Shown piece by piece: positions 16,562-37,576 of a stretch of 64,000 bases of DNA. Source of the stretch: an uncultured Bacteroidales bacterium (GTDB taxonomy: Bacteria; Bacteroidota; Bacteroidia; Bacteroidales; FEN-979); assembly GCA_903903985.1 (NCBI GenBank), contig CAIVAT010000160.1, positions 1 through 64,000 of the forward strand, written 5' to 3'. The notes below the pieces were generated by a model. It was not told the DNA's origin, did no database searches, and worked only from the letters and a program-made list of their open reading frames with translations. The position numbers were made by a program, and so were the translations under genes. Numbering within the stretch: the stretch's first letter is position 1; each line of letters opens with the position of its first letter.

Positions 16562-16603
16562 ATTGTTTTCATTGAATTTTAGTGGGTTTGATCCATCCTT
16601 AAA

Positions 16604-16674: not shown

Positions 16675-16686
16675 GAATGACTTTGA

Positions 16687-19794: not shown

Positions 19795-19828
19795 CTAGGT
19801 TTAAAGGTTTAAAATTGTTTTCACTTGA

Positions 19829-20920: not shown

Positions 20921-23785
20921 TTAAATTGCATAGCTTATCCCGAAAGAAAATACCCGGCCCGGGGTGTATGCCTTAACCTTGATGATGGCATCAGGCAGGC
21001 CTTCCGTTTTCATGGTTTGCTGGATCAGGGATTCTTGATTAAGGATGTCTTTGATTCCGAATTTTACTGCCAGGTTCCGTCCGATCCTTTTTTGTATGGT
21101 AAAATCGAGGATGTTCCGAGGCATTTCGTATGAGTTGGGAATATCTGGAGTTCCGATACCTACGATCCGTTTGCCGAAAACATTGTAAAGCAGGCTGAGA
21201 GAAAGATCGTTTTTGACATTCTGGAAGTAAAGTCCGGCATTTACGATATATGGTGACTGGCCGTACATGGGCCGGTTATGATCGAGGACGAACAGGTACT
21301 CAGGGTTCGTTTCCACGCGTGATCTGATGTAGGCTGCATTGAGCACGACTGAAAAGTTCCTGAACGTCCGTAAAAAATTATGTTTTGCTGCCCAGTCCTG
21401 AAAGCCGATCCTGATATCAACTTCGGCGCCAATGCTGTTCCCATTGATCGCGTTGAGGTAGTGGAGGTCCCATTCCCCACCTGAGGCAGGCACCCAGGTT
21501 GCTTCAATCGGACTGTCAAATTTTTTGTAAAATGCACCGAGCGTGATCATTTCACCCGGGCTTGGATACCACTCATAACGTAGATCATAGTTATCGATGT
21601 AACATGATCTGATACCCGGGTTGCCGTAAACCGTCACATTCTCCTTAAAATTATAAAATGCAAACGGGGCCACCTCCCTGAATTCGGGCCGGTTGATGGT
21701 TCTTCCGTAAGCCAGCCTGATAAGGTTCTTTTCATTGATGTTGAATGTTACATTCACCGAAGGAAAAAGGTTGACGGTATCCCGCGTTGTTTGTACGACC
21801 ATTTCACGGTTCGCATCCGGTCCTGAGAGAACCAGTTTGTTACTTTCCACCCGCAACCCACCATATATGTTCAGAAAAGTTCCGATCGGGATCCTCAATG
21901 CAAGATAACCTGCCAGCAATGTGTTTTCAATTTTATACTGGTATCCCGGGTCATAAACCTCCCGGTAGATCACCCCGTCCTGGTAATTGAAATTGCTTTC
22001 GGTATATACGCTGTCGATAGGCTGATGCAGGATCTCCTGGTTAATGTAACCCGTTTTTGCCCAGATCACGCCAAACGGACGGACATAGAAATCGCGGTTT
22101 TTCAGTTCGCCGAAGATCCCGGTTTTGATTTCCGGCCTGAAGGTACCAATCGTGAAGGAATGCTGGTAGTTGGCATTCCCGTTGTAAATATTTTCCTTTA
22201 CATCTGCAAACAGCCTCGCATTGCCGTCGGCATTGGCTGTGGCTGTATAGTCAAGCTGGTAGGGGTAATAGGTGGTTTCATTCTTTTTGGGTGCATAATA
22301 ATTGATCAGCCGGTTGTCGGGTTCACTCTGGTTGGCATATGAATATCCAAAGGTCCATTTCAACGAATTGGATTCATTCATGGTATGGGTTCCGCCAACT
22401 GATCCGGAATAAATTGTTCTGCTGGCATACCCGAGCATCGTTTTATATACATGGTTGTCATCCCGGTAATGGTCCACCCCGGTGCGGATGATGGTGGAGG
22501 TGATCCCTGTCTGGTTGAACAGGTTGTTGAATTCAAAAATATTTTTTCCTGCTGCAAGCGACCAGTTTGAGATGGCACCGATGCCGATACCTTCATCGTT
22601 TTCCGAATCCTGGTAAGATTTTGAATAGGTCACACCACTACTGGTGGTTCCGTATGATTCAACCTTTAAACGTTGGATGTCGTCGATGCTGTGGCTTAAC
22701 TTATAGCTCAATGCCGTAATAGTCCCAATTTTTATACGTCCGGCATTGAAAATGTGGCTGAAATCAACATTGAATTTATTATCAAGCGGTGCCGTTCGGC
22801 CGGTGCTTGAGGAGATCGAACTGAATGAATGGGCAATGTCGAGCATCCGCTGCTTGCGGTAGGCGTTCTCTTCAGGTGTACCGCCACTGCTGTAATCCTG
22901 CAGTTGAAGGACTTCGTTTGTTGATGGAACGTTTCCGGGAAGTTTTCGGGTTCCATTGTCAAAACCCAGCCAGTCGGTGCTGCTTCCCTTGTATTTCTGA
23001 AATTCCTTGAAGGATGACCCGTCATTGTATCCTACCGTATAACCAAAGCCGATGCTGTTTTTTTCCGGTATGTTTTTCGTGGAAATCTGGATGAAAGCTC
23101 CGGCGAAATCAGCAGGAATTTCAGGGGCAGGGGTTTTATAGATTACCATATTGTTAATCATATTACTTGGAAGTACATCGAATGAAAAGGCGCGCTGGTC
23201 TGTTTCACTGCTGGGAGTTGATGCGTTGTTAAGCCATACGGTGTTATACCGTTCGATGAGCCCGCGAACCACCACAAACCGGCCACCCATAATGGTAACG
23301 CCCGGGAGTCTTCTGATAACCTCCGAAGCATCCTTGTCCTGCGATTTGGCGATCATTTGCGACGAAACACCAACAATGATCAGGTTACTCTGTTTGCTGG
23401 AATTGATGACCGATATCTCCGTGTCTGTTTTTTTTCTTGCCGTTACCGAAACTTCAGAAAGCTGCGTGGTGGTTTCGGTGATACCGTGATCAAGGGTCGT
23501 TACTTTATCTTTACTGACTTTGACCCCAGGGATGGTATCGACTTTATAAGAGATAAAGGAGACGATGATCTGATAGGTGCCTGGTTTGATATTTTTAATA
23601 TGGTAGTTTCCTTCTAAATCGGTCGATGCCCCAATCGTGGTTCCTTTGATAAATACACTTGCGCCAACAATGCTTTCCTTTGTCTTCAGATCAGTGATAT
23701 TTCCCTGGATGGACCCCTGGCCAAATGATGTCAACGAAAGAAATTCAATAAATAAAACAGAAAAGAGTATGATGCAATGCTTCAT
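20921..23785 (-). CDS. TonB-dependent outer-membrane receptor
   Basis: 954 residues from the chosen start. The frame is open six codons further upstream, but that ATG overlaps a perfect -7 element, so MKHCIILF is preferred. After the signal peptide comes a carboxypeptidase-regulatory-like domain (QGNITDLKTKESIVGASVFI, about 25-110), a plug domain (about 125-235, with VIRRLPGVTIMGGRFVVVRG) and a beta-barrel ending in GRVFSFGISYAI. It moves a ligand across the outer membrane using TonB. No SusD partner is encoded; instead three cohesin-like proteins and one dockerin-like protein follow in the operon. The promoter carries three 11-bp-phased TTAAY units exactly 21 bp upstream of the -7 element, predicting control by a PhoB-type regulator. 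Confidence 0.9.
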   Translation of the reverse strand: MKHCIILFSVLFIEFLSLTSFGQGSIQGNITDLKTKESIVGASVFIKGTTIGASTDLEGNYHIKNIKPGTYQIIVSFISYKVDTIPGVKVSKDKVTTLDHGITETTTQLSEVSVTARKKTDTEISVINSSKQSNLIIVGVSSQMIAKSQDKDASEVIRRLPGVTIMGGRFVVVRGLIERYNTVWLNNASTPSSETDQRAFSFDVLPSNMINNMVIYKTPAPEIPADFAGAFIQISTKNIPEKNSIGFGYTVGYNDGSSFKEFQKYKGSSTDWLGFDNGTRKLPGNVPSTNEVLQLQDYSSGGTPEENAYRKQRMLDIAHSFSSISSSTGRTAPLDNKFNVDFSHIFNAGRIKIGTITALSYKLSHSIDDIQRLKVESYGTTSSGVTYSKSYQDSENDEGIGIGAISNWSLAAGKNIFEFNNLFNQTGITSTIIRTGVDHYRDDNHVYKTMLGYASRTIYSGSVGGTHTMNESNSLKWTFGYSYANQSEPDNRLINYYAPKKNETTYYPYQLDYTATANADGNARLFADVKENIYNGNANYQHSFTIGTFRPEIKTGIFGELKNRDFYVRPFGVIWAKTGYINQEILHQPIDSVYTESNFNYQDGVIYREVYDPGYQYKIENTLLAGYLALRIPIGTFLNIYGGLRVESNKLVLSGPDANREMVVQTTRDTVNLFPSVNVTFNINEKNLIRLAYGRTINRPEFREVAPFAFYNFKENVTVYGNPGIRSCYIDNYDLRYEWYPSPGEMITLGAFYKKFDSPIEATWVPASGGEWDLHYLNAINGNSIGAEVDIRIGFQDWAAKHNFLRTFRNFSVVLNAAYIRSRVETNPEYLFVLDHNRPMYGQSPYIVNAGLYFQNVKNDLSLSLLYNVFGKRIVGIGTPDIPNSYEMPRNILDFTIQKRIGRNLAVKFGIKDILNQESLIQQTMKTEGLPDAIIKVKAYTPGRVFSFGISYAI

Positions 23786-23800
23786 TGGAAATATTTGCGG

Positions 23801-23856
23801 CAAAATTACCGCACGGGCTCCATAGGGATGTTAATTGAACATTAACTCCTTGTTAA
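23801..23856 (-). promoter_or_regulatory. PhoB-type array and promoter for TonB-receptor operon
   Basis: Read on the minus strand, units TTAAC (23852-23856), TTAAT (23841-23845) and TTAAC (23830-23834) are spaced exactly 11 bp apart. After a 21-bp gap comes TAATTTTG (23801-23808), a perfect -7 element. The start codon at 23785 is 16 bases further. The geometry is that of an activator of the PhoB/OmpR family replacing the -33 element. Confidence 0.75.
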
Positions 23857-23958
23857 CAATATGTGAAGTTTTACATACCTGCCTATATGGCTATAACAAT
23901 CAGCTTTTATTGAATGTGTAAGAAAATTGGAGGATTTTATCCGGAAATCGATATAATA

Positions 23959-23976
23959 TTTAATATTCAGTTAACA
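23959..23976. promoter_or_regulatory. extra two-unit PhoB-type site without promoter
   Basis: TTAAT at 23960 and TTAAC at 23971 are 11 bp apart. The 18 bases TTTAATATTCAGTTAACA are identical to those at 25341-25358. No -7 element lies at the expected distance in either direction, so it may be an upstream auxiliary site for the divergent genes. Confidence 0.5.
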
Positions 23977-24064
23977 TTTGGCAACTTGACGGTTATCCTG
24001 AACGATTATTGATAACTTTCCAATAAACTCCCGGCTATTTGTCATGCAAGGTAGTAGGAGTAAT

Positions 24065-24109
24065 TTAATAGATATTTAACATGGGTCTTACTTTGTAATT
24101 GTACTTTTA
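24065..24109 (+). promoter_or_regulatory. PhoB-type array and promoter for the 24138 gene
   Basis: TTAAT at 24065-24069 and TTAAC at 24076-24080 are 11 bp apart. A 21-bp gap leads to TACTTTTA at 24102-24109, a -7 element with one mismatch. The start codon follows 28 bases later. Confidence 0.6.
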
Positions 24110-24137
24110 CGGGATTAACCAACAAAAAGAATAAAAC

Positions 24138-24485
24138 ATGAAAAAACTAATAAAAGGTTTGCCGGAGGTTCATATCCTCGGGGATTTGAAGGAGGTAAAA
24201 AAACTTATCTCAGGAGTGAACAAGAAAAAAACCCTTGTCATATTCCAGGACGGAGATGAGGGATCATTTTACCTGGAGATTGAGAAAAAATTTCAATCGA
24301 TCTTACAGAAAGACATCAATCAGCTTGCAAAAGATTACCGGTTGATATTCTTCTCGTTTTTCCCAAGCCGCAAAAAGGTTGAGCCAATAATTGATGATCA
24401 ACCTGAATTGATGATGCCAGAAAAGAAAGAGAAAAGGGAAAAAGGAAAGAAAGAAGAGAAGAAAGCGAAAAGTAAGAAGAAATAG
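24138..24485 (+). CDS. small protein with Lys-rich tail, predicted PhoB-regulon member
   Basis: 115 residues, no signal peptide. Residues 1-75 have an alpha/beta pattern (PEVHILGDLKEVKKLISGVN, KKTLVIFQDGDEGSFYLEI). Residues 90-115 are almost only Lys and Glu, ending KKAKSKKK. No family recognised. The basic tail might bind polyphosphate, nucleic acid or membrane lipid headgroups, but nothing proves this. The promoter has the 11-bp TTAAY pair at the standard 21-bp distance, linking it to the neighbouring response regulator. Confidence 0.65.
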   Translation: MKKLIKGLPEVHILGDLKEVKKLISGVNKKKTLVIFQDGDEGSFYLEIEKKFQSILQKDINQLAKDYRLIFFSFFPSRKKVEPIIDDQPELMMPEKKEKREKGKKEEKKAKSKKK

Positions 24486-24503
24486 AAATAGGGGTTATTA
24501 TTT

Positions 24504-25190
24504 TTATCCTTCCCAAAATTTATATCCGATACCTTTAACGGTTTTGATACTGCTGATGCCCAATTTTTCACGTATTCTGCGGATATGGACATCTATGGTT
24601 CTGTCACCAACAATAACATCTTCGCCCCATACATTATCAAATATCTTGTCACGGGATACAACTTTGCCATTTTGTGAGACTAGGAATAACAGCAGTTCAA
24701 ACTCCATCCTCACAAGGCTGATCTCCTGATCATCCTTTATGACAATGTAACGGCTTTTATCAATCGTAAAGCCTTTCAGGGTAATGATACTCGTGTTTTT
24801 AGGCACCTCTTTCAGCCTTCTTAACAAAGCCTGGACACGACTCACAAACACTTTTGGTATAATCGGTTTGGTAATATAATCATCGGCACCGGCCTCAAAT
24901 CCGGCAATCTGGGAATAATCTTCCCCACGGGCAGTTAAAAAAATGATCAGCGTATCAGCGATATCAGGATTCTTTCTGATTTCAAGGCAGGTTTCCATGC
25001 CATCCATGACAGGCATCATCACATCAAGAATTACTAAATGCGGCCTGTGCTGCTTGATCAGGTTAAGTGCTTTCTGTCCGTTTTTTGCTTTTAAAACCTT
25101 ATATCCTTCCCGACCTAAATTATATCCCAGGAATTCAAGAATATCCGGTTCATCATCAACCAAAAGAATTGTTATCTCGCTATTTTCCAT
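24504..25190 (-). CDS. PhoB/OmpR-family response regulator
   Basis: 228 residues. Receiver domain 1-122 with acidic pocket DDE (12-14), phosphoacceptor Asp in VILDVMMP, FLTARGED and Lys in ADDYITKPI. Winged-helix DNA-binding domain about 130-228 with LVRMEFELLLFL, VVSRDKIFDNVWG, VGDRTIDVHIRRIREKLG and IKTVKGIGYKF, which is close to PhoB. PhoB-family dimers bind direct repeats with an 11-bp period, and such repeats lie upstream of this gene and of five others nearby. It is likely autoregulated. No sensor kinase (PhoR) is encoded next to it, so the partner must be elsewhere. The name PhoB is inferred from the regulon, hence no symbol. Confidence 0.88.
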   Translation of the reverse strand: MENSEITILLVDDEPDILEFLGYNLGREGYKVLKAKNGQKALNLIKQHRPHLVILDVMMPVMDGMETCLEIRKNPDIADTLIIFLTARGEDYSQIAGFEAGADDYITKPIIPKVFVSRVQALLRRLKEVPKNTSIITLKGFTIDKSRYIVIKDDQEISLVRMEFELLLFLVSQNGKVVSRDKIFDNVWGEDVIVGDRTIDVHIRRIREKLGISSIKTVKGIGYKFWEG

Positions 25191-25234
25191 ACAATATTAA
25201 TCTTCTGCCCAAAATTCAGCGATTTTCATGAATA

Positions 25235-25301
25235 CAAAGATCATCTCTTCAATGCAACAATATGTTAACTTAAAAACAAATAATGGTTAAATAATCGTTA
25301 A
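25235..25301 (-). promoter_or_regulatory. PhoB-type array and promoter for the response regulator gene
   Basis: On the minus strand TTAAC occurs at 25297-25301, 25286-25290 and 25264-25268; spacing is 11 and 22 bp, so one position of a four-unit array is degenerate. A 21-bp gap leads to GATCTTTG at 25235-25242, a -7 element with one mismatch. This predicts autoregulation. Confidence 0.65.
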
Positions 25302-25330
25302 CTTATTAGGACCATTTGGAAGTCAGAGAA

Positions 25331-25386
25331 TTAATGCTAATTTAATATTCAGTTAACACTGGCGGGGGGCGTATACGCTACATTTG
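25331..25386 (+). promoter_or_regulatory. PhoB-type array and promoter for the 25405 gene
   Basis: TTAAT (25331), TTAAT (25342) and TTAAC (25353) are spaced 11 bp apart. After 21 bp comes TACATTTG (25379-25386), a perfect -7 element, 18 bases before the start codon. Confidence 0.75.
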
Positions 25387-25404
25387 CCTCAAAAATTTCT
25401 CCCT

Positions 25405-25761
25405 ATGAAAAATAAAGGAATATTATTGGTCTTGGTTGTTGTTTCCCTGTTGAACCTCCATGTTTCAGCTTCGAAAAAATCACCCGGAACATCAGGCCCA
25501 TCAACGCAGACTTCCTTCTCAGGTGTGATAATAGACAAAAACTCCAATGAAAAACTGGCCGGGGTATCGATCCAGATACCTGAGACCGATCAGAAGATCT
25601 ACTCCAATTCCCAGGGCGAATTTACACTGGACGGAATTGAGCCCGGAACCTACAAAGTAAAAATTAACTGTATTTCTTATAAGGACAAAGAAGTTACGGT
25701 AAAAGTTACCAAATCGCCAAAGGAAAAGGTTAAGGTTCTGCTCGATCCGATACAACCATAA
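25405..25761 (+). CDS. secreted carboxypeptidase-regulatory-like domain protein
   Basis: 118 residues from the second ATG (the upstream one at 25384 lies within the -7 element). Signal peptide (MKNKGILLVLVVVSLLNLHV), a Ser/Thr/Pro linker and one CarboxypepD_reg-like beta-sandwich: TSFSGVIIDKNSNEKLAGVS, GEFTLDGIEPGTYKVKINCI. This is the same domain type as at the N-terminus of TonB receptors, here stand-alone. Location is probably periplasm or outer membrane. Its promoter has the three-unit 11-bp array at the standard distance, so it should respond with the TonB-receptor operon. Confidence 0.75.
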   Translation: MKNKGILLVLVVVSLLNLHVSASKKSPGTSGPSTQTSFSGVIIDKNSNEKLAGVSIQIPETDQKIYSNSQGEFTLDGIEPGTYKVKINCISYKDKEVTVKVTKSPKEKVKVLLDPIQP

Positions 25762-26013
25762 GCGCGGAAATACGCTTCATTCCTTCCGTTTTTACAAAAG
25801 TACTACCCTGCTTATATTCTTTGCTGGTCCTATGCAATTCATCGTACGTCATTGGTTGCATTGTTTATACTTTTTTCAAAAACGGGAGCCTTTGCAAGCA
25901 ACTGTTTAATGCTGGAATTCGCCCAATTGACTTAATCCGGTTGGCCAAAGCGAGGCCGTATATTAAATATTTATTACATAAACATAAACATGCATCTGGC
26001 TGCATCAATTGAT

Positions 26014-26021
26014 TAATTTTG
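26014..26021 (+). promoter_or_regulatory. predicted -7 element for MORN-like protein gene
   Basis: TAATTTTG, a perfect match to TAnnTTTG, 28 to 21 bases before the start codon at 26042. It argues against the upstream in-frame ATG at 26030. Confidence 0.5.
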
Positions 26022-26041
26022 CATTATAAATGCTGCATCTC

Positions 26042-26509
26042 ATGAAAAAAACCGCCATACTTTTTCTTCTTTTTATTATATTTTTAAACACGCTCACTGC
26101 CCAGGATGTGATCCTGAAAAAAGACCATTATATACTCCGTGACAATGGTAAAGCCTATTCCGGTGTTTTCAAAGAATATAATTCAGAAAAAAGACTTATT
26201 TCAGCAACTTGTATAAAAAATGGTTTGCTTGAGGACTCGACCACTATTTATTATCCGTCAGGAACAATCAAGGAAATAAGGTCGTACCGGGATGGGCAAA
26301 AAAATGGCATCTGGACAACCTGGAATGAAACAGGAAAAAAGACGGCAGAAGCCAGTTTTAAAAATGGCAGGAAGGATGGTTTCTGGTATGTATGGGATGA
26401 CAACAGCATAAAACGATACGAAATGTACTATCAGCAGGGCGAGAAAAAGGGGATATGGATTATCAGGGATGAAAACGGCAATGTCACAAGCCGGGAAGAA
26501 TTTAAATAG
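26042..26509 (+). CDS. secreted MORN-variant repeat protein
   Basis: 155 residues. Signal peptide (MKKTAILFLLFIIFLNTLTAQ) followed by five to six MORN-like repeats of the YwqK type, each with G-x-W or similar: KNGLLEDSTTIYYPSGTIKE, DGQKNGIWTTWNETGKK, NGRKDGFWYVWDD, QGEKKGIWIIRDENG. Such proteins are common in Bacteroidetes; the label antitoxin attached to this family in databases is not evidence of that role. Function unknown. No PhoB-type array upstream. Confidence 0.75.
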   Translation: MKKTAILFLLFIIFLNTLTAQDVILKKDHYILRDNGKAYSGVFKEYNSEKRLISATCIKNGLLEDSTTIYYPSGTIKEIRSYRDGQKNGIWTTWNETGKKTAEASFKNGRKDGFWYVWDDNSIKRYEMYYQQGEKKGIWIIRDENGNVTSREEFK

Positions 26510-26539
26510 TCGGAAATTCTCAGCCTGCTCAGTAAATAA

Positions 26540-27391
26540 TCAGGTATGGTCAATAAGGATCGTCTCCACGACCGCGCTCACCTCCGGCATGAAATGTTGA
26601 ACCAGGTTTTGGTTATAATCAGTAAGCGTTTGTTGAAGTATATGTAAGGCCTTCCGTTCTGCTTCAGGCATATTGCTGTTCTCCTTCAGGAACCGATCAA
26701 TAGCTTTTCCCAATACCACCCGGTCATGCCAGTCACCGATCATCATTTCGGTTTTATTCAACGATGTGATCACCTGATCAAGCCATTTTCCGGACTTGAC
26801 CGAATAAACAAGGGTGGAAATGGTCGCCATCGCCTTGAGTGTCTTTCGGATTTTATGTATGTCGTCTTCGTCGGGTTCATTCAATTGTAAATCTTTAACT
26901 TGTTCAGCCTTGACACTGATATATGCATTTGTTTTAGAGCGGAGTTTGAAAAGGGAACTGCGATGACAAATTTTTTCTATCATCTTATCCGTATCCGATA
27001 ATTCTGCCTCCTTGAATGTTTTAACCATTTGAAGAAACTTCTGAATAGCCTGGCGCTCTTCTTCCCTCATCCAAAAAATAAAGGTATCATATTCAATAGC
27101 CTGAGGTTGCAGATTTGCGAGCAAAATGTAATTCACTTGTATCTCCCGGATTTTCCCGGCCTGACGATATAAGGGCCTGAACAATTTATACCCTCCCTGA
27201 TGCTTAAAGATAGTTGGGTCCAGCATCTCAAAAAGACCATATAAAGCAAAAATCCTTTTTACATCAAGTCTTGCCCGGTGGATATCCCTTGAATCACTTG
27301 TAATGCTGGCTTTGTAAACATGTGCAAGGAATGACGTAGTCCTTTTCCGGTAGAAGCGGTACAGAAATTCTCCGATCTCTTTTTTTTTCAT
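26540..27391 (-). CDS. CHAD domain protein
   Basis: 283 residues, soluble and helical. The CHAD signature is visible: HRARLDVKR near residue 39, DIHKIRKTLKAM near 183 and IGDWHDR near 228, with His and basic residues on helix faces. CHAD domains bind inorganic polyphosphate. It is the last gene of a minus-strand set (glycosyltransferase, GH13 glucosidase, small helical protein, CHAD), 15 bases after the preceding gene. Presence close to the putative PhoB regulon fits phosphate physiology, but its own operon shows no 11-bp TTAAY array. Confidence 0.8.
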   Translation of the reverse strand: MKKKEIGEFLYRFYRKRTTSFLAHVYKASITSDSRDIHRARLDVKRIFALYGLFEMLDPTIFKHQGGYKLFRPLYRQAGKIREIQVNYILLANLQPQAIEYDTFIFWMREEERQAIQKFLQMVKTFKEAELSDTDKMIEKICHRSSLFKLRSKTNAYISVKAEQVKDLQLNEPDEDDIHKIRKTLKAMATISTLVYSVKSGKWLDQVITSLNKTEMMIGDWHDRVVLGKAIDRFLKENSNMPEAERKALHILQQTLTDYNQNLVQHFMPEVSAVVETILIDHT

Positions 27392-27406
27392 GAGGGTTGG
27401 TGAGGA

Positions 27407-27898
27407 TTAGCCTTGGTATTCAATGCCATTGTCAGATAAATTATCTGCCCGTTTTAATAATTTTGCCGCTTTATTCAATTCCTTGAATAATCGAATTCCT
27501 TCGTTTGCCAGTCGCTCAAGTCTTGCCTGAGAAACATGTATGCCGGGGATGTCTTTCAGAACATCATTCCGCTGATTTTTCCATGTGCGTATGTCATCGA
27601 TCAACCCGACCTTAATATGCGCTGAAAAATCAGGATGCTTTGCACTGATACTTAAATTCCTGATACGATTGATCAATTGTGTGAAAGTGAGTCCATGCTT
27701 TTTCGTTGGTGGTTGCAATTTTTCAAGAATTTTTTTCAACTTCTGTTCGAAAATTGAAGTTAAAATCCATGAAGCTTCAAGGTAAAACTCATGTTTTATT
27801 GCTAATCCGGCCTTTTCGACTAACCTTTTACCACTATGCCTTTTTTCAGCGATGTGTTTTTTGCCTTTCATTCCTGGGCTTTTGAGTTTATGATCCAT
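27407..27898 (-). CDS. small helical protein, possible HEPN-like fold
   Basis: 163 residues, basic N-terminus (MDHKLKSPGMKGKKHIAEKR), then four or five helices: EFYLEASWILTSIFEQKLKK, LTFTQLINRIRNLSI, IDDIRTWKNQRNDVLKDI. The last segment resembles the RxxxxH-type helix of HEPN proteins but without the His. No family assigned. It precedes the CHAD gene by 15 bases and follows the GH13 gene by 50 bases. Confidence 0.55.
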   Translation of the reverse strand: MDHKLKSPGMKGKKHIAEKRHSGKRLVEKAGLAIKHEFYLEASWILTSIFEQKLKKILEKLQPPTKKHGLTFTQLINRIRNLSISAKHPDFSAHIKVGLIDDIRTWKNQRNDVLKDIPGIHVSQARLERLANEGIRLFKELNKAAKLLKRADNLSDNGIEYQG

Positions 27899-27948
27899 GA
27901 TAATTCAATAAAGGTAGCGCATTATTTACCAACATATGATAAAACCTA

Positions 27949-29574
27949 TCATTCAATTACCAGGCATACTGTCGCTTCAAACGGGCTGATCTGCATTTTC
28001 TGAAAATAACTGAATTCTTCTGTTATGCGGTGTGTCGAAAAAAGAACTTTACCATAGGCATGTTCCGGCAATGAGAGTGTATTCTGGCGACCCATAAAGT
28101 TCAGGAAAACAAGGATACGTTCTTTTTCAGTTAATCTGTAATAAGCAAGAATACCATCTTGTCCATTGCTTACTGGCACCCATGAACCTTTCTGAATCGC
28201 TTCACTGGTTTTTCTGAGCTTTATAAGATTCCTGTAAAGGTTTAACAGCGATGATGGCTCACCTTCCTGCTGTCTGACACTGCGCAACCTGGTGTCCTTG
28301 TTTAGCGGTAGCCAAGGATTGCCGGCCGTAAAACCTCCTTTGGGTTCCGGAACCCACTGCATGGGTGTCCGGGCTTTGTCCCTGCCTGTAAATAACGGCC
28401 AGAATTTTTTGCCCAAAGGATCGCGGATCTTGCTTTTAGCAATGTGGGTATTGTGCATGCCGATCTCCTCACCGTAATAAATGAAAGGAGTTCCCATAAG
28501 CGTCATGAGCAATGTGGCTGCGACCCTGGCTTTTTCTTCCCTGTTTGTGCGCCATGGAAACCGGTCGATGCTTCTGAAAAGATCGTGGTTCGACAAGACG
28601 TTGCATGGCCAACCACCTTCGGGGATACTGTCATACCAGGTTTTAATACTTTTAAAATAGGAATGTGCATTCCAGGTGCTGAAAATCAGGGAAAAATCAA
28701 ATGCCAGATGCAGTCCGTCTTTCCCTTTTGCAAAATATCTTGCTGCGGTCTTAGCATCCCCCGGAGGATGCGCATAAATTTCTCCAATGCTGACCTTATC
28801 CTCCTGCCGGTCCAGTAATTCCCGGATCTGCCTCACAACTGTGATCGACCGTTTTCGGTTGCGGCTATATATATGCTTCTGAATTGCCTGAATCCCGAAT
28901 ACTACCGGGTTACTCCTGAATTTCTTATCCTTGGCGATCATATTGATAACATCCAGCCGGAAACCATCAACCCCTAAGTCGAGCCAGAATTTCATCTCTT
29001 CAAAGAAAACACCTGGCAGTTCCGAATCCCGCCAGTTAAGATCAGGTTGTTCCTCAAAAAAAGAGTGCAGAAAATACTGTCCGGATTGTTCATGGAATTT
29101 CCAGGCACTACCTCCAACTGCCGATTTCCAATTATTTGGCGGACTGCCCATGACCGGATCCTTCCAGATATACCAGTTTCTTTTCGGATTGTACAAGGAG
29201 GAGGAGGATTCAATGAACCAGGGATGTTGGTCGGAGGTGTGGTTGAGGATCATATCAAGAATGATTTTGATACCGGAGCCATGTGCCTTCGTTACAAGTT
29301 CAAGGAAATCTTCCATGGTTCCAAAAACAGGATCGATCTCGCGATAATTGGAAACATCGTACCCAAAATCCACCATGGGCGATTTATACATGGGGGAGAT
29401 CCAGATGCCATCAATTCCAAGGTCCTTCAGATAGCCCAACCGGCGAATAATTCCACGGATATCTCCGATCCCGTCACCATCAGAATCCTGAAAACTCCTG
29501 GGATAAATATGATAGATGACTCCATGTTTCCACCAGATCCAGGGTTCAATGTTGTTCTTGCTCATACGGTACAA
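27949..29574 (-). CDS. GH13 alpha-glucosidase (oligo-1,6-glucosidase type)
   Basis: 541 residues, no signal peptide, so cytoplasmic. GH13 regions are clear: IYPRSFQDSDGDGIGDIRGI, region I ILDMILNHTS, region II GVDGFRLDVI with nucleophile Asp, region III VSIGEIYA with acid/base Glu, region IV NVLSNHDLFR. The DGDGIGDIRG motif and length fit oligo-1,6-glucosidases or trehalose/sucrose-active relatives. The frame overlaps the end of the upstream glycosyltransferase gene by 13 bases; an alternative start three codons in is possible. Co-transcription with a glycosyltransferase suggests turnover of a glucosylated compound. Confidence 0.9.
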   Translation of the reverse strand: MYRMSKNNIEPWIWWKHGVIYHIYPRSFQDSDGDGIGDIRGIIRRLGYLKDLGIDGIWISPMYKSPMVDFGYDVSNYREIDPVFGTMEDFLELVTKAHGSGIKIILDMILNHTSDQHPWFIESSSSLYNPKRNWYIWKDPVMGSPPNNWKSAVGGSAWKFHEQSGQYFLHSFFEEQPDLNWRDSELPGVFFEEMKFWLDLGVDGFRLDVINMIAKDKKFRSNPVVFGIQAIQKHIYSRNRKRSITVVRQIRELLDRQEDKVSIGEIYAHPPGDAKTAARYFAKGKDGLHLAFDFSLIFSTWNAHSYFKSIKTWYDSIPEGGWPCNVLSNHDLFRSIDRFPWRTNREEKARVAATLLMTLMGTPFIYYGEEIGMHNTHIAKSKIRDPLGKKFWPLFTGRDKARTPMQWVPEPKGGFTAGNPWLPLNKDTRLRSVRQQEGEPSSLLNLYRNLIKLRKTSEAIQKGSWVPVSNGQDGILAYYRLTEKERILVFLNFMGRQNTLSLPEHAYGKVLFSTHRITEEFSYFQKMQISPFEATVCLVIE

Positions 29575-30755
29575 GCTTCGGTCATCAATCCCACGTCCTG
29601 CAGCAACCGGTCCATAATCTTATCAGCCTGGTAAGCTTCTGCCCGCTGCAAGGCTGCTTGTTTCATCTTTACCCATGATTCCGGGTCAAGAAAATAACCA
29701 ATTGCTTTCCCGGCCATTTCTTCACCCGAATCAACCAGAAATCCACATACTGAATTCTCCAGAATATCCTTTGGCCCCTTGGCATTATAGGCGATAACAG
29801 GCAACCCGCAACTCAGCGCTTCAAGGACAACGCAACTGAAAGTATCGAAACGTGAAGGCAGCAGCAGGAGATCTGCCGTTTGATACAGTGCAGGCAAAAA
29901 TTTCTGGCCAACCCATCCCAGAAAGAGTGCGTCCGGCATCGCCTTTTTCAGTTCTTCCTCTGCAGGCCCTGTTCCTGCGATGACCATTTGTATTTCCGGG
30001 ATTACCGACCTGATCATCCTCGTAATTCGCGGGAGTTCAAGAACCCCTTTTTCTTTACTGATCCGGCCTGTATATAGAATAACAGGTTTCAGTTTGTTGA
30101 ACTGCAGCCTGTCGAAGAGAATTTCCTGGCTTCTCTTTTCCGAAGGTTCAGAGAAAATCCTGTCAGCCCAGTGAGCGGTCAGAAACACGCGCGACGGATC
30201 AAATCCCATGGCCTTGCTTGTCAGCCATTGCTGATGGTCGGTGTTGAGTACGAATACGTTTCCAAATCTCTTATAGTAAATCCTGAGGATCCGTTGCAGC
30301 CTGTTAAGACCTGTCTGCTCCAGCGATACCACCTCTTTAGCAAAAATCAGCCAATCCGTGTGCAGGTAGAAGAAAACTTCAACCGGGAATACTTTTTTCA
30401 GCCAAAGCGCTGCAAGGCCCATGGGACCTTCGGTGGAACAGATGATCTTGTTATAATTGCCCCGCCTGAAAATGCGTTGCACAGAAAGATAGTTGGGAAT
30501 TCTGAAAGGTTGTTGCCGGTATAACGGGAGCGTGAACTCAGTGACGGGCCTGACAACAATGAGGTGGTCTTCCGATTGCATCGTATTGCTGCAAACAAGA
30601 AGGTCAACGGGTAAATTACGACGCCTGATCTCCAGTAGGATTGCCTTCAATACAGTCGATACCCCATTGTGATCTCCATACGTATCGGTCAGCCAAAGCA
30701 GACGGCCTGCTTTTTCCGATCTATCAGCAGTTATTTCCTTTGTATTTGATTTCAT
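29562..30755 (-). CDS. GT4-family glycosyltransferase
   Basis: 397 residues, two Rossmann-like halves. N-terminal acceptor part with LLWLTDTYGDHNGVSTVLKA; C-terminal GT4 donor part with VILYTGRISKEKGVLELP, MVIAGTGPAEEEL and the E-x7-E motif region SRFDTFSCVVLEALSCGLPVIA. Soluble or peripheral at the inner membrane. The acceptor might be a lipid, as in diacylglycerol glycosyltransferases of the SqdX type, but this cannot be decided. It is the second frame of a tight operon, 3 bases after a 66-codon frame and overlapping the GH13 gene. Confidence 0.85.
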   Translation of the reverse strand: MKSNTKEITADRSEKAGRLLWLTDTYGDHNGVSTVLKAILLEIRRRNLPVDLLVCSNTMQSEDHLIVVRPVTEFTLPLYRQQPFRIPNYLSVQRIFRRGNYNKIICSTEGPMGLAALWLKKVFPVEVFFYLHTDWLIFAKEVVSLEQTGLNRLQRILRIYYKRFGNVFVLNTDHQQWLTSKAMGFDPSRVFLTAHWADRIFSEPSEKRSQEILFDRLQFNKLKPVILYTGRISKEKGVLELPRITRMIRSVIPEIQMVIAGTGPAEEELKKAMPDALFLGWVGQKFLPALYQTADLLLLPSRFDTFSCVVLEALSCGLPVIAYNAKGPKDILENSVCGFLVDSGEEMAGKAIGYFLDPESWVKMKQAALQRAEAYQADKIMDRLLQDVGLMTEACTV

Positions 30756-30758
30756 TCG

Positions 30759-30959
30759 TTATTCTCCCAGATAATATCCCTTATCCGAAGAAAGGAAAAG
30801 CTCTTCCTCTGAAAAAAAAGTGAAATTCCCTGTCCTTTGAATCGGTCTGTACTTCCCATCTGATATTTTGGGACTAACGAACATTCCACGCAGGAGTGGA
30901 AGCTTATCCCGTCTGGATATTCTGTTGATCTCCCTTGATTGACCTGTATTTTTTTTCAT
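30759..30959 (-). CDS. possible small leader protein of the glycosyltransferase operon
   Basis: 66 residues, basic in the first half (REINRISRRDKLPLLRGMF) and ending SDKGYYLGE. The stop codon is 3 bases before the glycosyltransferase start, and the end of this frame contains GGAGAA, which can act as ribosome binding site for it. A -7-like GAAATTTG lies 20 bases upstream of its start. No homologue recognised; tight spacing is the main support. Confidence 0.4.
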   Translation of the reverse strand: MKKNTGQSREINRISRRDKLPLLRGMFVSPKISDGKYRPIQRTGNFTFFSEEELFLSSDKGYYLGE

Positions 30960-31023
30960 AATACTTCTGATTTTTGCGCAAATTTCTGCTTAATATCAGC
31001 AGATTTTCCGATTTCATGATAAC

Positions 31024-31101
31024 TTAATAATTTCTTAACAGTAAATTAATATTTTCGTAATACCCTGTTAACATTGGACTTACATATGCTTGGTAATTTT
31101 G
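31024..31101 (+). promoter_or_regulatory. five-unit PhoB-type array and promoter of plcP-like gene
   Basis: TTAAT, TTAAC, TTAAT, GTAAT and TTAAC start at 31024, 31035, 31046, 31057 and 31068: five units with an exact 11-bp period. A 21-bp gap leads to TAATTTTG (31094-31101), a perfect -7 element, 10 bases before the ATG. The mRNA leader would be only a few bases. This is the longest array in the window. Confidence 0.8.
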
Positions 31102-31111
31102 CATCCAGATA

Positions 31112-31966
31112 ATGAAAGAACGATCCTTGCCCAAACGTGAAGTTGACCTTGTCATCATTTCCGATGTACATCTTGGGGCATTCGGCTGTCATGCCAAAGA
31201 GTTGTTGCAATACCTGAGAAGCATTAAACCCCAAATGTTAATCCTGAATGGGGACATCATCGATATCTGGCAATTTCGCAAACGGTACTTCCCAAAATCA
31301 CATTTGATGGTGATCAGATACCTCACTGGACTGATCGCTAAAAACACCAAAATCGTTTACATCACCGGGAACCATGATGAGCTGATGCGGAAATTCACCA
31401 GATTCAACATTGGCTCATTCAAACTGGTGAACAAGTTACTGATCGATCTTGGCGGGCAGAAAGCCTGGATATTTCACGGCGACGTCTTTGACATCACAAT
31501 GCAACACAGCAAATGGCTGGCGAAATTTGGTTCTTTCGGATACGATCTGCTGATCCTGTTGAACAGTTTCGTGAATTTCATGCTGACCAGCATAGGCAGG
31601 CAAAAAATATCCTTTTCACGCCGGATCAAACACAGCGTAAAACGTGCTGTTTCGTATATCAACAAATTCGAAGAGACCGCCGCCGGGATCGCCATCTCAA
31701 AAGGATATGGATACGTTATCTGCGGCCATATCCACCAACCTGAAATGCGTACAATCAGCAATGCCCAGGGATCAGTGACCTATTTGAATTCCGGCGACTG
31801 GATTGAGAACCTCTCCGCACTCGAATATCATCATGGGGAATGGCAAATCTATAATTACCGTGAAGATTTATATGCCCAGGCTTACGCAGCTACATCAAAA
31901 CAGTCTGTATCGCCAAGCCATAAGGAAACATTCGAAGAGCTCCTGAAGGAGTTTGAACTCGGGTGA
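31112..31966 (+). CDS. plcP: PlcP-type metallophosphoesterase (phospholipase C-like)
   Basis: 284 residues, calcineurin-like phosphoesterase. Metal-binding motifs: ISDVHLGAFGC (Asp, His) near residue 15, NGDIIDIW near 46, TGNHDE near 86, FHGDVFD near 125 and CGHIHQPE near 208. The Gly-Cys after DVHLG, the GDVFD with following MQHSKWLAKFGSFGYDLLI and the end NSGDWIENLSALEYH match the PlcP family, which removes phosphorylated headgroups from phospholipids under phosphate starvation, more closely than classic LpxH. Databases often label such proteins UDP-2,3-diacylglucosamine hydrolase. The product diacylglycerol would feed a glycosyltransferase such as the one at 32474-33676. The five-unit PhoB-type array supports this reading. 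Confidence 0.8.
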   Translation: MKERSLPKREVDLVIISDVHLGAFGCHAKELLQYLRSIKPQMLILNGDIIDIWQFRKRYFPKSHLMVIRYLTGLIAKNTKIVYITGNHDELMRKFTRFNIGSFKLVNKLLIDLGGQKAWIFHGDVFDITMQHSKWLAKFGSFGYDLLILLNSFVNFMLTSIGRQKISFSRRIKHSVKRAVSYINKFEETAAGIAISKGYGYVICGHIHQPEMRTISNAQGSVTYLNSGDWIENLSALEYHHGEWQIYNYREDLYAQAYAATSKQSVSPSHKETFEELLKEFELG

Positions 31967-32010
31967 ACACAGGAAACATGAATATTTCTCACTTTTTCAT
32001 TCAGGACGGT

Positions 32011-32018
32011 TATCTTTG
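32011..32018 (+). promoter_or_regulatory. predicted -7 element for DUF1761 gene
   Basis: TATCTTTG, a perfect TAnnTTTG match, 29 bases before the start codon at 32048. No TTAAY array here. Confidence 0.5.
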
Positions 32019-32047
32019 CAAACAATAATCATTCTAAATAAATAATT

Positions 32048-32464
32048 ATGGAAATTTCAAACATAAATTTTATTGCTTTGGCCATAGCAGCCATGGCAAG
32101 TTTTGGACTTGGGGCAGCCTGGTATAGTCCTTTTCTTTTTGGCAAGGCATGGCAAAAGGAATTGGGATTCACCGACGAATACCTGAAGAAAGGCAATATG
32201 CTGGCAATCTTTGGCTCGAGTCTGTTGCTGATTTTTGTAATGGATCTCGGTCTGGCAGTTATCCTTCAGGGAAATGCGGGCAGGGAAGTTAATGCTCTTT
32301 CCGGATCACTTTATGGATTACTGACCGGGATTTTCTTTGTGGCTACCTCCATCGGGATCAACATACTTTATCAGAGGAAATCATTGAAGCTCTGGGCGAT
32401 CGATGCCGGATACCAGGTGCTATACCTGGCTATGACCGGAGCAATCCTTGGGAATTGGCGTTAA
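32048..32464 (+). CDS. DUF1761 membrane protein
   Basis: 138 residues, four membrane helices. The N-terminal pattern GLGAAWYSPFLFGKAWQKEL with W-Y-S-P-x-L-F-G is the mark of the DUF1761 family, and the end LYLAMTGAILGNWR fits as well. Function unknown. It has its own promoter between plcP and the convergent glycosyltransferase gene. Confidence 0.85.
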   Translation: MEISNINFIALAIAAMASFGLGAAWYSPFLFGKAWQKELGFTDEYLKKGNMLAIFGSSLLLIFVMDLGLAVILQGNAGREVNALSGSLYGLLTGIFFVATSIGINILYQRKSLKLWAIDAGYQVLYLAMTGAILGNWR

Positions 32465-32473
32465 TTAATAAAC

Positions 32474-33676
32474 TCAATCCTCGTCATCTTCCCATTGATG
32501 TGAAACTGTCGGCTGGTATTCCCTGATCAATTCCACATAACGATGATAAACATTGTCAACAATCTCTTCCCATGGATGATAGAGTGATTTTGTGGCACCC
32601 TCACCAGCTCTTTTTATCGCCTCCGGATGACTCATCAGGTCAGTAATGGTAGTCGTCAGGGAAGCGATTTCATTTTCAACCAAAAATCCATTCACCCCGT
32701 CGAGGATCCCCTCTGCAGAGGAACTGTTTCCGACGACTACAGATGGAACACCGAACGCAGCAGCCTCCTGGATGACTAGCGGGGAGTTGTCATAAACCGA
32801 TGGAAACACCAGCAGGTCAGCTGCTGCATATACATTCTGCAATTCCTTCCGGTCAGTGATCACCCCCAGGAACACCACCTGGTCATGCAGTTGATACTGC
32901 CTTACCAATTGAGTCATGTCCCTGGCAGCATATCCTTCACCCACGAAAACCATTCTAAACTGTTTCCCTGATGTTTGCAACATTTTCAATGCGTCAATGA
33001 TGAGCCTGACATTTTTCTCCCAGCGGTGCTGTCCCACGAACAACATCATGAACTCGTCAGGGCCGGCATCGATCATGTCCAACCCTTTTCCCTTGTATTT
33101 CAGCAATTTTGCCTGATCCGGAATTTGCATGTCGGTTCCATTGGGCATCACCTCAAAGGAACCGCTATAACCATACTCCCTGAGCGTTAGCCCGGTGGCA
33201 TTGTTTGGAACCCACACCAGGTCGGCAGCATTGTAAAAATCAAGGGTCAGTTTCATTAGAAAGTCAACAAACAAGTCGTTGTTGATTACCTTTTTGAAGT
33301 CATCCCTGTACTTGGTGTGAAAGGTTGCAACCAGCGGCACATTGAGTTTTAGGGCAAGTTTTGCTGCAACCTGCCCGCTGATGAAAGGGCAATGTGCGTG
33401 AAGCAGGTCAAACTTGATCTTTTTAATCTTCTTTTTGAATTTGACATCGAACAGCGGAAGGCCAACCCGGTATGGATTCATGCCGGGCAGCAGGACTGAC
33501 TTGAACCGGTGAACTTTATAGTCGACGTTGTCTTGGTAATCCTTTACTTTTGGTGCAACGAGCATGCTTTTACCATGTTTGGCATTCAGCCAGTGTGCGT
33601 AGTTATGGGCCGTCATTCCCACGCCATCCATGATCGGGAAATAGGAATCATTGAATTGACAAGTCGTGATCTTCAT
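32474..33676 (-). CDS. GT4-family glycosyltransferase, likely diacylglycerol glycosyltransferase
   Basis: 400 residues from the chosen start MKITTCQFN; 14 codons upstream are also open but they overlap the -7-like region. N-terminal half begins with a YFPIMDGVGMTAHNYAHWL segment similar to alMGS/SqdX-type lipid glycosyltransferases (pattern FP..DGV), then HAHCPFISGQVAAKLA and FHTKYRDDFKK. C-terminal GT4 half has MMLFVGQHRWEKNVRLI, VFVGEGYA and VFPSVYDNSPLVIQEAAAFG. In phosphate-starved bacteria a GT of this kind (Agt) glycosylates the diacylglycerol made by PlcP. Location near plcP and an 11-bp TTAAY array upstream support this, though its array-promoter distance differs. Confidence 0.8.
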   Translation of the reverse strand: MKITTCQFNDSYFPIMDGVGMTAHNYAHWLNAKHGKSMLVAPKVKDYQDNVDYKVHRFKSVLLPGMNPYRVGLPLFDVKFKKKIKKIKFDLLHAHCPFISGQVAAKLALKLNVPLVATFHTKYRDDFKKVINNDLFVDFLMKLTLDFYNAADLVWVPNNATGLTLREYGYSGSFEVMPNGTDMQIPDQAKLLKYKGKGLDMIDAGPDEFMMLFVGQHRWEKNVRLIIDALKMLQTSGKQFRMVFVGEGYAARDMTQLVRQYQLHDQVVFLGVITDRKELQNVYAAADLLVFPSVYDNSPLVIQEAAAFGVPSVVVGNSSSAEGILDGVNGFLVENEIASLTTTITDLMSHPEAIKRAGEGATKSLYHPWEEIVDNVYHRYVELIREYQPTVSHQWEDDED

Positions 33677-33691
33677 AAATGAATTTTTATG

Positions 33692-33752
33692 CAAATATCG
33701 ACATCCGTTATGTGTCAACTTGATCGTTAACGAATTGTTAATGAATATTTAA
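33692..33752 (-). promoter_or_regulatory. PhoB-type array upstream of glycosyltransferase gene
   Basis: On the minus strand TTAAA (33748-33752), TTAAC (33737-33741) and TTAAC (33726-33730) are spaced 11 bp. The nearest -7-like element is GATATTTG at 33692-33699, 26 rather than 21 bp away. The element is 16 bases before the start codon. Confidence 0.6.
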
Positions 33753-33911: not shown

Positions 33912-36900
33912 ATGCAACTGACCCTGTTATCCCCCCGAAAATCCCTCAACAAAGCCTACCTCAAGGTAAAACCGTCGCGCAGTGAGATTGAGCTTTTCAA
34001 GATAAACCTTATTAAAATGCTTGATGGTTTGGATGAATCCGAATCGGAAGAGCATGTCAAAAACGACTTGAGCGATTTTCTCAAAAATACGTTCTTTCAG
34101 AAATGCTATATCAACACAAAAGGCCGCAATGACCTTGTGATTCATAATGGCCCCGATGCAAAAAGTTTAGCCGGTGTGTTGATCGAAGCCAAGAAGCCTT
34201 CGAATAAAACCGAGATGATCCGGACGGATAACCTGAATGCAAAAGCGTTTCAGGAACTTATCTTGTATTATCTGCGCGAACGGATCACCAATCACAACCT
34301 GGAGATCAAACATCTCGTGGCCACAAACATTTATGAATGGTTCGTTTTCGATGCCGGCCTCTTTGAGAAGTTGTTCGCCCAGAATAAAACCCTGGTAAAA
34401 CAGTTCACCGATTTTGAAGAAGGCCGGTTATCAGGAAACACAACTGAATTTTTTTACAAGCAAATTGCAGAGCCATTCCTTGCAGGCCTGACTTCCGAAA
34501 TTTGCTTCACTGCCTTTGATTTCCGGGAGTATGAAAAACCCCTGCGAAATGACGACAAAAAAGATGATTCCAAACTCATAGCCCTTTATAAACTGTTGTC
34601 ACCGGAACATTTACTGAAACTTCCTTTTACCAATGACAGCAACAGCCTGGACAAAACATTTTATACGGAATTGCTTCATATCATCGGTTTGACCGAAACA
34701 AAGGAAGGCAGTAAAAAACTCATCGGCCGGAAAAAGGATGGACAACGTGATCCCGGTTCACTCATTGAGAATGCCATTATCCAGATCGACAGCCTGGATA
34801 TGATCAGCCGGATTGATAAACCATCCCGCTTTGGAGAAACGCTTCAGGAAAGACTTTTCAATGTGTCGCTGGAACTGGCGATTACCTGGATCAATCGTAT
34901 CTTATTCATGAAGCTGCTCGAAGCCCAGTTGATCAATTACCATAAAAGTGATCCTTCCTATGTGTTCCTTACCACTGAAAAAATCAATGGATATGATTCA
35001 CTGAATAGCTTATTCTTTCGGGTACTTGCCAGGAAGAACATGGAACGTGATCCTGCGGTGGCTAAATTATTTGACAAGGTACCTTATCTGAACAGTTCGC
35101 TCTTTGAACCGACAGAGCTGGAGCGCGACACCATTTTTATCAGCAACCTGCAGGATGACTGCCTCGTTCCGATTCACCCGGGAACGGTATTGAAAAATAA
35201 TACCGGAAAACGGCTATCCGGGAACATGAATGGTTTGGATTACCTCTTTGCCTTCCTGGATGCCTATGATTTTTCAGGCGAAGGCGCAGAAGAGATCCAG
35301 GAAGACAACAAAACGCTGATCAACGCTTCGGTTCTTGGTTTGATTTTTGAAAAGATCAACGGTTATAAAGACGGTTCCTTCTTTACCCCTGGATTCATTA
35401 CCATGTACATGTGCCGCGAAACAATCCGCCGGGCCGTATGTCAGAAGTTCAATGACCTGAAGGGTTGGGATTGCCAGGATATGGAAAGGTTGTATAATAA
35501 AATTGAAGACCGGAAGGAAGCCAATGAGATTATCAACCAGCTTAAAATTTGTGACCCGGCAGTTGGCTCCGGGCACTTCCTGGTTTCTGCGCTCAATGAG
35601 ATCATTGCCATCAAAAGCGAATTGAAAATATTGTCGGACAAGGCTGGAAAAAGACTCAAAGAGTATCACGTCGAGGTTGTGAATGATGAACTAATCGTTA
35701 CCGACGAAGATGGAGATTTGTTTGAATATAATCCCACCAATCCGGAGAGCCAACGGATTCAGGAAACGCTATTCCGTGAGAAACAAACCATTATTGAAAA
35801 TTGTTTGTTTGGTGTTGACATCAATCCCAATTCCGTGAAAATATGCCGTTTGAGGCTTTGGATTGAATTGTTAAAGAATGCCTATTACCTCACCCCCCGG
35901 CCCCCTCTCCCCGGGGGAGAGGGGGAGCAGGAACTCGAGACCCTGCCCAACATCGATATCAACATCAAATGCGGTAATTCACTGATTTCACGCTATGCGC
36001 TTGATGCGGATATCAAACAAGCGTTGAAGAAAAGCAAGTGGAGTATCGATACCTACCGTATTGCCGTCATGTCCTATCGGAATGCCTCCAATAAAGAGGA
36101 AAAGCGAACGATGGAGCGGCTCATCGAATCGATCAAGACCGATTTTGAAACCGAAGTGGCCGCAAATGACAAGCGCCTGGTGCAATTGAAAAAGTTAAAT
36201 GGTGATCTGTTTAATCTTACACAGCAAACATCACTTTTTGAGAGGACTAAGAAAGAATTGGCCGATTGGAACAAGCAAGTTAATGAACAGACCGGCAAGA
36301 TTAAGAAACTTGAAACCGAACTCGAAGAGATCAAAAACAACAAGATCTATGAGAATGCTTTTGAATGGCGGTTTGAATTTCCGGAAGTGCTCAATGATGA
36401 GGGGGATTTTGTGGGGTTTGATGTGGTGATTGGGAATCCACCGTATATACCTGGTAAGGATTTGGACGATAATTTTAAATGGCATCTCAAAGATTATTAT
36501 AAATTCACAATTGGAAAATTTGATGTTTATCTTTCATTTATTGAGAAAGGGTTAGAAATACTGACAATAAAGAAAAACTTGTGCTTTATCATTCCAAACA
36601 CCTTTCTGGTCAATGAAAACGCAATTTTATTGAGAGGTAACTTGATAAATAACCAATTATTGAATTTGATAACCGTATTTGACGACACTGTATTTTCTGA
36701 AGCATTTGTCGAGAGTATTATTTTACAAATTGACAATATTGAAAAACATTCGGTATTGAAACTTCAAGATAGAAATTTCAAGTTTATTAGAAGTATAGGG
36801 TTTGATGATCTTAAAGCTGTCTCAGATTACAGGATACAAGTTTCCTTATGTTTAGCAGATGATTCCATCCTGTTTAGAGCCAAAACGGCTTCAATAAAAC

Positions 36901-37544: not shown

Positions 37545-37576
37545 TTTTCAAATAGACAAAGATCAGAGAACCAAAT

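Follow-up and report, generated by a model that had tools for sequence, protein, structure and literature searches.

Phosphate-starvation operators built of repeats in 11-bp steps have been described in several bacteria. In Bacillus subtilis, the PhoP box consists of TTAACA-like repeats in 11-bp steps, and we know of no duplicated kinase-less regulator in that system. The PHO box bound by Escherichia coli PhoB is made of 11-nt head-to-tail repeats of CTGTCAT-type units upstream of pst; relative to the core promoter its place is fixed, 10 bp ahead of the −10 element (PMC1906773). The word of the PHO box varies between species (PMC4415409). The cyanobacterial SphR Pho box (CTTAACCT, 8 bp plus 3 bp) has a TTAAC core, an 11-bp period and at least three tandem units (PMC1906773). 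Here we describe arrays of TTAAY units in 11-bp steps in a 64,000-nucleotide stretch of DNA (the window) from an uncultured Bacteroidales bacterium. The arrays are very probably Pho boxes, serving as operators of a phosphate-starvation regulon in this Bacteroidota genus.

Pho regulons of Bacteroidota are already known by expression (PMC8115612, PMC3547664). In Flavobacterium johnsoniae, PlcP, PhoB and TonB receptors are among the targets of the PHO regulon, and PlcP, PhoB and a TonB receptor of the phoBR operon rise upon phosphate depletion (PMC8115612). In Bacteroides fragilis, PhoB shifts a 512-bp fragment of the pst promoter (PMC3547664); the parts of these two reports drawn on here note no operator sequence. 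For Riemerella anatipestifer PhoP, likewise a Bacteroidota regulator, DNA affinity purification sequencing gave 583 peaks and a motif with TTTAACA as its most conserved bases, with no array or −7 spacing noted in the sections used (PMC9603813). Within the portions of the open-access literature covered, subscription journals being outside its scope, we found no operator of this kind for Bacteroidota, the Riemerella TTTAACA motif being close.

The window arrays resemble the B. subtilis repeats, which differ in belonging to a Gram-positive core promoter. With the E. coli system they share head-to-tail 11-bp repeats upstream of pst, a fixed place relative to the core promoter and a regulator whose recognition helix is much alike. 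Unlike the CTGTCAT-type units of E. coli, the units here are TTAAY or GTAAY, number up to five, and in this genus end 21 bp from the Bacteroidota −7 element (10 or 21 bp across the class). The cyanobacterial box shares the TTAAC core and the period but belongs to another phylum and another core promoter, and the sections of PMC1906773 used here note no 21-bp register to a −7 element.

The window lies on contig C160 of a Bacteroidota genome (G000) of 5.2 Mb in 195 contigs. The arrays, their spacing, gene neighbours, conservation and paralogy were read from the sequence. Direct reading and re-measurement of 23.8–33.8 kb confirmed six TTAAY arrays stepping by 11 bp, as claimed in a preliminary description of this DNA, and re-measurement likewise bore out its claim that at five promoters 21 bp separate the last TTAAY unit from a −7 element resembling TAnnTTTG, namely at those of a TonB receptor, a 115-aa gene, a response regulator, a 118-aa gene and plcP. 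Specifically, three units on the minus strand (23830–23856; unit starts 23856, 23845 and 23834) and the −7 element TAATTTTG (23801–23808) precede the gene of a TonB-dependent receptor with CarboxypepD_reg and Plug domains (20921–23785, minus strand), which heads a row of receptor and secreted-protein genes and whose orthologs in relatives also have a box. Two units on the plus strand (24065–24080; starts 24065 and 24076) and TACTTTTA (24102–24109) precede the 115-aa gene (24138–24485); the same array stands at the orthologous loci of G012 and G022, and comparison of the protein with Pfam and NCBIfam profiles gave no match. The gene of a PhoB-like response regulator, with no kinase gene adjoining (24504–25190, minus strand), follows three units and a degenerate TTGTT (25264–25301; 25301, 25290, TTGTT, 25268) and the −7-like element GATCTTTG (25235–25242).

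On the plus strand, three further units (25331–25357; starts 25331, 25342 and 25353) and TACATTTG (25379–25386) precede the gene of a 118-aa CarboxypepD_reg-like single-domain protein (25405–25761), secreted judging by its start. The longest array, five units in exact 11-bp steps (31024–31072, plus strand; 31024, 31035, 31046, GTAAT at 31057, and 31068), is followed by a second copy of TAATTTTG (31094–31101) and by plcP (31112–31966), which encodes a PlcP-like calcineurin-type metallophosphoesterase with PF12850/PF00149 domains. The sixth array, on the minus strand (33726–33752; TTAAA 33752, TTAAC 33741 and TTAAC 33730 in 11-bp steps), precedes the GT4 glycosyltransferase gene adjoining plcP (32474–33676). 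The preliminary description had listed this array and had given the 21-bp distance for five of the six only; the array stands and is conserved in relatives, and it is no member of the 21-bp register, its last unit lying 26 bp from the conserved −7-like element GATATTTG (33692–33699). In addition, a lone TTAAT-N6-TTAAC pair (23960–23975, plus strand), present in G022 too, has no −7 element at 21 bp.

Same-strand TTAAY units in the window are 11 bp apart 15 times, 22 bp apart nine times and 33 bp apart five times, every other spacing occurring at most three times. We shuffled the window 200 times in 1-kb blocks with dinucleotides preserved and counted distinct places. The 11-bp TTAAY pair occurs at eight places in the window versus 0.89 in shuffles, and the 22-bp pair followed after 21 bp by a −7 element, a class overlapping its 11-bp counterpart, occurs at four versus 0.00. 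The full architecture, the 11-bp pair followed after 21 bp by a −7 element, occurs at three places versus about 0.01 per shuffled window; the pattern is far rarer in shuffled DNA, whereas equal frequency there had been named beforehand as what would refute the preliminary description.

One could regard the arrays as AT-rich intergenic repeats or by-products of promoters, with no dedicated regulator. The count of the bare TTAAY-N6-TTAAY pair across the whole genome fits such an origin, being no higher than that of the reversed pattern (98 versus 119), and the bare pair is unusable as a marker because it shows no genome-wide excess. With the fixed −7 distance, an excess appears: the pair with a −7 element at 21 bp is found six times versus once for the reversed pattern in the own genome (two of the six being TTAAT arrays on contig C120) and 30 times versus three in 21 genomes, own included, and the 22-bp-spaced pair with a −7 element at 21 bp 56 times versus three in 19 same-genus genomes. 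Enrichment concerns the pair when its distance from the −7 element is fixed, not the pair alone. Both the spacing and the targets are conserved, and we give an origin as mere repeats almost no credence. A position weight matrix (PWM) built from 43 genus sites, with locus L124 excluded, scores above 5 at four of the five promoters and nowhere else in the window, all four being among its training sites.

A function-blind search of the 19 same-genus genomes with free spacing (KTAAY-N6-TTAAC-N8..38-TAnnTTTG) gave 134 matches versus 39 for the reversed pattern over all spacings. The distance to the −7 element was 21 bp in 51 matches, 32 bp in 30, 22 bp in 21 and 26 bp in six, with at most five at any other distance, revealing the fixed register to the core promoter that marks a Pho regulon; some of the 32-bp matches arise from the first two units of 21-bp arrays that have three. 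Seven gene families follow 45 of the 51 sites at 21 bp: a porin-like gene (17), plcP (11), the 118-aa CarboxypepD_reg gene (7), the TonB receptor (6), a CBM48 gene (2), the regulator (1) and PafA (1). Of the remaining six, two sites are at contig ends and one precedes another TonB gene, which leaves three of other kinds. Because the families behind these sites are led by pst and plcP, the arrays are most likely Pho boxes.

The porin-like gene is the first of the pst operon, so that the head-to-tail 11-bp repeats upstream of pst known from other Pho regulons are found here as well. It carries the box in 17 of the 19 genomes, which bears out the predicted enrichment upstream of pst and strongly supports the proposal of a phosphate regulon of the PhoB type whose boxes keep a constant distance of 21 bp. 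In nine fetched loci, own included, pstS is the next gene after the boxed porin-like gene; G006, G011 and G012 have phoU some 5.4 kb away from the box, and in five more boxed genomes the porin-like gene alone was seen. The pst proteins of the own genome score above their profile cut-offs (PstS 245.3 versus 206.6, PstC 230.5 versus 196.45, PstA 252.6 versus 193.45, PstB 416.1 versus 343.2, PhoU 168.3 versus 130.25). The porin-like protein itself (512 aa; L123, 7656–9194) gave no match in a Pfam profile comparison and is 35% identical to a 428-aa protein adjoining pstS in G014. Directly upstream of the pst operon, on the same strand, lies a gene for a TPR-PAS-HisKA_2 kinase (L123, 9333–11693; G000 contig C54), and genes with similar starts occupy the same place in G012 and G026.

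In the genus, the box stands before 11 plcP genes and seven genes of the 118-aa family, the window genes included; by eye, similar genes of about 102 aa outside the genus are boxed as well. Other phosphate-type genes occur near boxes or in the islands of relatives, namely PiT with DUF47 and PafA (658 versus a cut-off of 650) and, below their cut-offs, an OlsF-like ornithine-lipid synthase (389 bits versus 620) and a sphingomyelinase-like phosphodiesterase (65 bits versus 248.2). The preliminary description had proposed to look for enrichment at polyphosphate genes as well; polyphosphate kinase genes lack the box in 19 of 19 cases, the negatives at L333 and L346 being weak since the start was taken inside or near the end of a different frame.

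The window regulator is composed of a receiver domain (PF00072) and a winged-helix output domain (PF00486), and its recognition helix has DRT-DVHIRR-R in common with E. coli PhoB of 1gxp. A paralog on contig C173 of the same genome is 77% identical to it and, in contrast to the window regulator, beside which no kinase gene was found, has a kinase gene directly downstream. The kinase-linked regulator is present in all 19 genomes, with kinases 60–84% identical to that of C173, and none of the 19 has a box in the 185–250 bp scanned upstream (L161 has a bare pair). The kinase-less regulator is present in 11 of the 19 and boxed in seven of these. Apart from D or E at its first residue, the recognition helix is identical in the aligned kinase-linked and kinase-less copies. 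In a tree of the regulators that includes G001:C255:10149 and leaves out G003:C99 and G001:C255:22167, kinase-less copies look derived, with at least two state changes forced by well-supported branches.

These observations bear on which regulator uses the boxes. It could be mainly the kinase-less regulator of the window, acting as the true PhoB with a distant kinase phosphorylating it: it sits among the arrays, often has its own box, and 21-bp sites are more numerous in genomes that own such a copy (on average 3.8 versus 1.1, p=0.0009, uncorrected for kinship and partly circular because the island neighbours of the copy are among the sites counted). Six genomes with the kinase-linked form only (E≤1e-60; G005, G006, G011, G021, G023 and G024) nevertheless retain the full pst box, a crude motif search prone to over-calling places a kinase-like frame within 1.7 kb for 69 of the 80 named relatives (the frame lists of L275 and L278 showing no obvious kinase), and the derived position of the kinase-less copies in the tree also speaks against it. 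We regard this assignment as unlikely. Since the kinase-linked paralog is found in all 19 genomes and six keep the pst box with no kinase-less copy, the C173 paralog is likelier than the window copy to be the phosphate-sensing regulator, and the window regulator is probably a duplicated, kinase-less copy and itself a target of the system. The earlier assignment of the arrays to the neighbouring regulator is thus supported in part, the neighbour being PhoB-like and probably not the main regulator.

Two further loci also carry a boxed regulator. In L269, the regulator has a 21-bp box and no kinase was found for it; a CarboxypepD-like 118-aa gene and a MORN-like gene come after it, and a gene resembling that of a TonB receptor lies upstream (by eye). 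Because this arrangement recurs in a distant relative, the regulator–CarboxypepD module may predate the genus. In L239, the regulator carries its own 21-bp array and is followed by a kinase-like gene.

For the class as a whole, we measured distances from units to the −7 element, loosely defined, upstream of pstS in the 30 best-scoring loci of a class-wide draw, 28 of them usable. Distances of 10, 21, 32 or 43 bp account for 23 of 48, versus 1.35 in shuffles (maximum 5); 11 are at 21 bp and six at 10 bp, registers that differ by one repeat step. Thus, 21 bp is the rule in the genus, and both 10 and 21 bp occur across the class. In G014, whose PhoB scores above the Bacteroides-type cut-off, inspection by eye of the divergent porin–pstS and pst promoters shows TTACTTTG or TTCCTTTG at a distance of 10 bp from their GTAAY/TTAAC units.

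The glycosyltransferase array follows another register. In all three orthologs examined (L140, L142 and L145), a unit lies 26 and/or 37 bp from GATATTTG, and in a fourth (L132) the pair is equally far from the start codon. The enzyme, whose gene adjoins plcP with its 21-bp box, may belong with PlcP to a phosphate-controlled lipid-remodelling pair; its best NCBIfam match, to MGlcDAG synthase, scores below the cut-off (93.4 bits versus 400). TTAAC pairs also mark two other kinase–regulator systems. In one, they lie 22 bp from the −7 element before a gene of about 260 aa divergent from the kinase (L315, 4545–4604, G001:C122; L317, 2046–2112, G000:C143), the kinase–regulator pair being seen whole in L315; similar strings were seen by eye in the free-spacing match list for 16 of the 19 genomes. 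In the other, a kinase–regulator operon has a TTAAT-N6-TTAAC promoter site 26 bp from the −7 element (L316, 1787–1836, G001:C285; L318, 2226–2275, G000:C63), and 26-bp matches occur in six of the 19 genomes, two of which were examined.

Judging by these sites and the glycosyltransferase array, TTAAC is a word confined neither to the 21-bp distance nor to phosphate. The arrays might then serve a different OmpR-family system, for example an envelope or redox system, of which phosphate genes form only a part; the conserved pairs at 22 and 26 bp and the 583 peaks and ArcA-like motif of Riemerella PhoP (PMC9603813) point that way. At exactly 21 bp, the 45 sites before seven families, pst and plcP being the commonest, point to phosphate, and we consider such a broader system quite improbable. 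Two further observations concern spacing and regulators. TTAAT tandem arrays in 11-bp steps on G000 contig C120 (L124, 2656–2711 and 4830–4885) flank, by eye, an OmpR-type regulator and a likely kinase, possibly as a parallel system. In each of four genomes examined (L347–L350), part of the 32-bp class precedes the gene of a lysine- and cysteine-rich protein of about 81 aa whose start resembles a signal sequence.

From these arrangements we infer binding, activation, phosphate as the signal and a division of roles between the two regulators. At low phosphate, the histidine kinase would phosphorylate the PhoB-type response regulator, whose dimers would bind head to tail on the 11-bp TTAAY repeats, with tandem dimers along the array. 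Just upstream of the −33 region and 21 bp short of the −7 element, the subunit bound to the final repeat would contact RNA polymerase. Since the −7 element of Flavobacterium psychrophilum lies at about −12 to −5 (PMC9723704), the last unit is predicted to occupy roughly −38 to −34, adjoining the −33 region, and activation would proceed from just upstream of −33, as with PhoB at E. coli promoters. The targets switched on would be the pst operon, lipid remodelling by plcP, the TonB receptor, small secreted proteins and, where relatives have them, phosphatases. The window regulator, a putative duplicated PhoB minus its kinase partner, would be activated through its box and reinforce the response in a feed-forward manner, with the kinase-linked paralog on C173 as the likelier phosphate-sensing master.

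A fuller amplifier model is tentative, and we put its chances somewhat below even. In it, PhoB would have been copied more than once within the genus to a kinase-less gene that is placed in a phosphate island behind its own Pho box and fed by the parent kinase, and owners of the copy would have a larger regulon. The two registers, 10 and 21 bp and one repeat apart, would allow activation from either helix turn, and the half-turn-shifted 26/37-bp array would place the lipid glycosyltransferase under a different control.

Several results weigh against reading the arrays as Pho boxes, including the bare-pair count, the 26/37-bp glycosyltransferase array and the other kinase–regulator pairs described above. 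Scores of the window regulator fall below the PhoB cut-offs of its two best NCBIfam matches (TIGR02154, 215.8 versus 296.2; NF053854, 204.8 versus 270), the C173 kinase falls below the PhoR cut-off (215.6 versus 334.2), and four of the 11 kinase-less regulators have no box. G007 and G010 have the kinase-linked regulator and no pst box; they also gave no PhoU match. The 115-aa gene is boxed in only two of seven orthologous loci of relatives. The own genome lacks PafA, which is reported as constitutive for F. johnsoniae (PMC8115612, PMC8812569); an in-register array precedes PafA at three of six loci (L322, L323 and L324, of which L323 also served to train the PWM). No such array was seen at L327 or at L325, which is partial, and L326 was counted neither way, the adjoining TonB gene having been scored. 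The L326 gene (G026:C32:12399–12851) is a PafA fragment with an in-frame stop, between the regulator and the TonB receptor. Across the class, the strict 21-bp pattern is modestly enriched, with 33 matches (four in the own genome) versus 15 reversed; judged by eye from translated starts, the 29 outside the own genome precede three PstS, four porin-like, one PiT permease, two CarboxypepD, two TonB receptor and 17 other or unclear genes. Furthermore, a PWM match at p≤0.01 lies upstream of only 13 of the 26 pstS genes scored class-wide.

The phosphate island of the window contains further genes. Downstream of the boxed TonB receptor, a row of large proteins (11625–20911) includes three that end in a T9SS tail or a sequence resembling one (a single one scoring above the cut-off) and two with cohesin domains; in some relatives similar genes also follow the receptor, and the row is possibly a phosphate-regulated surface apparatus. 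A CHAD-domain protein (26540–27391), CHAD being a polyphosphate-binding domain, has an ortholog in G004 with its own 21-bp box (L138), and in G002 and G026 the box stands before the neighbouring gene of the 27407 type (L132, L135). A GH13 alpha-amylase-type enzyme and a GT4 glycosyltransferase (27949–30755) travel in relatives with plcP and the CBM48 gene, boxed in some, a possible link between phosphate starvation and a carbohydrate store. Just past the island (33912–38449) lie an Eco57I-type methylase with DUF7149/DUF7814 and then a RhuM-family gene.

Placed at a constant distance from the −7 element, such a box would make phosphate regulons predictable in uncultured Bacteroidota. In this genus, it singles out as candidate phosphate genes those for the 115-aa, 118-aa and CBM48 proteins and for the TonB receptor, along with the secreted-protein row that accompanies the receptor. 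In addition, the distances of 10, 21, 22, 26 and 32 bp form a natural spacing series with which the placement of activators on Bacteroidota promoters could be probed.

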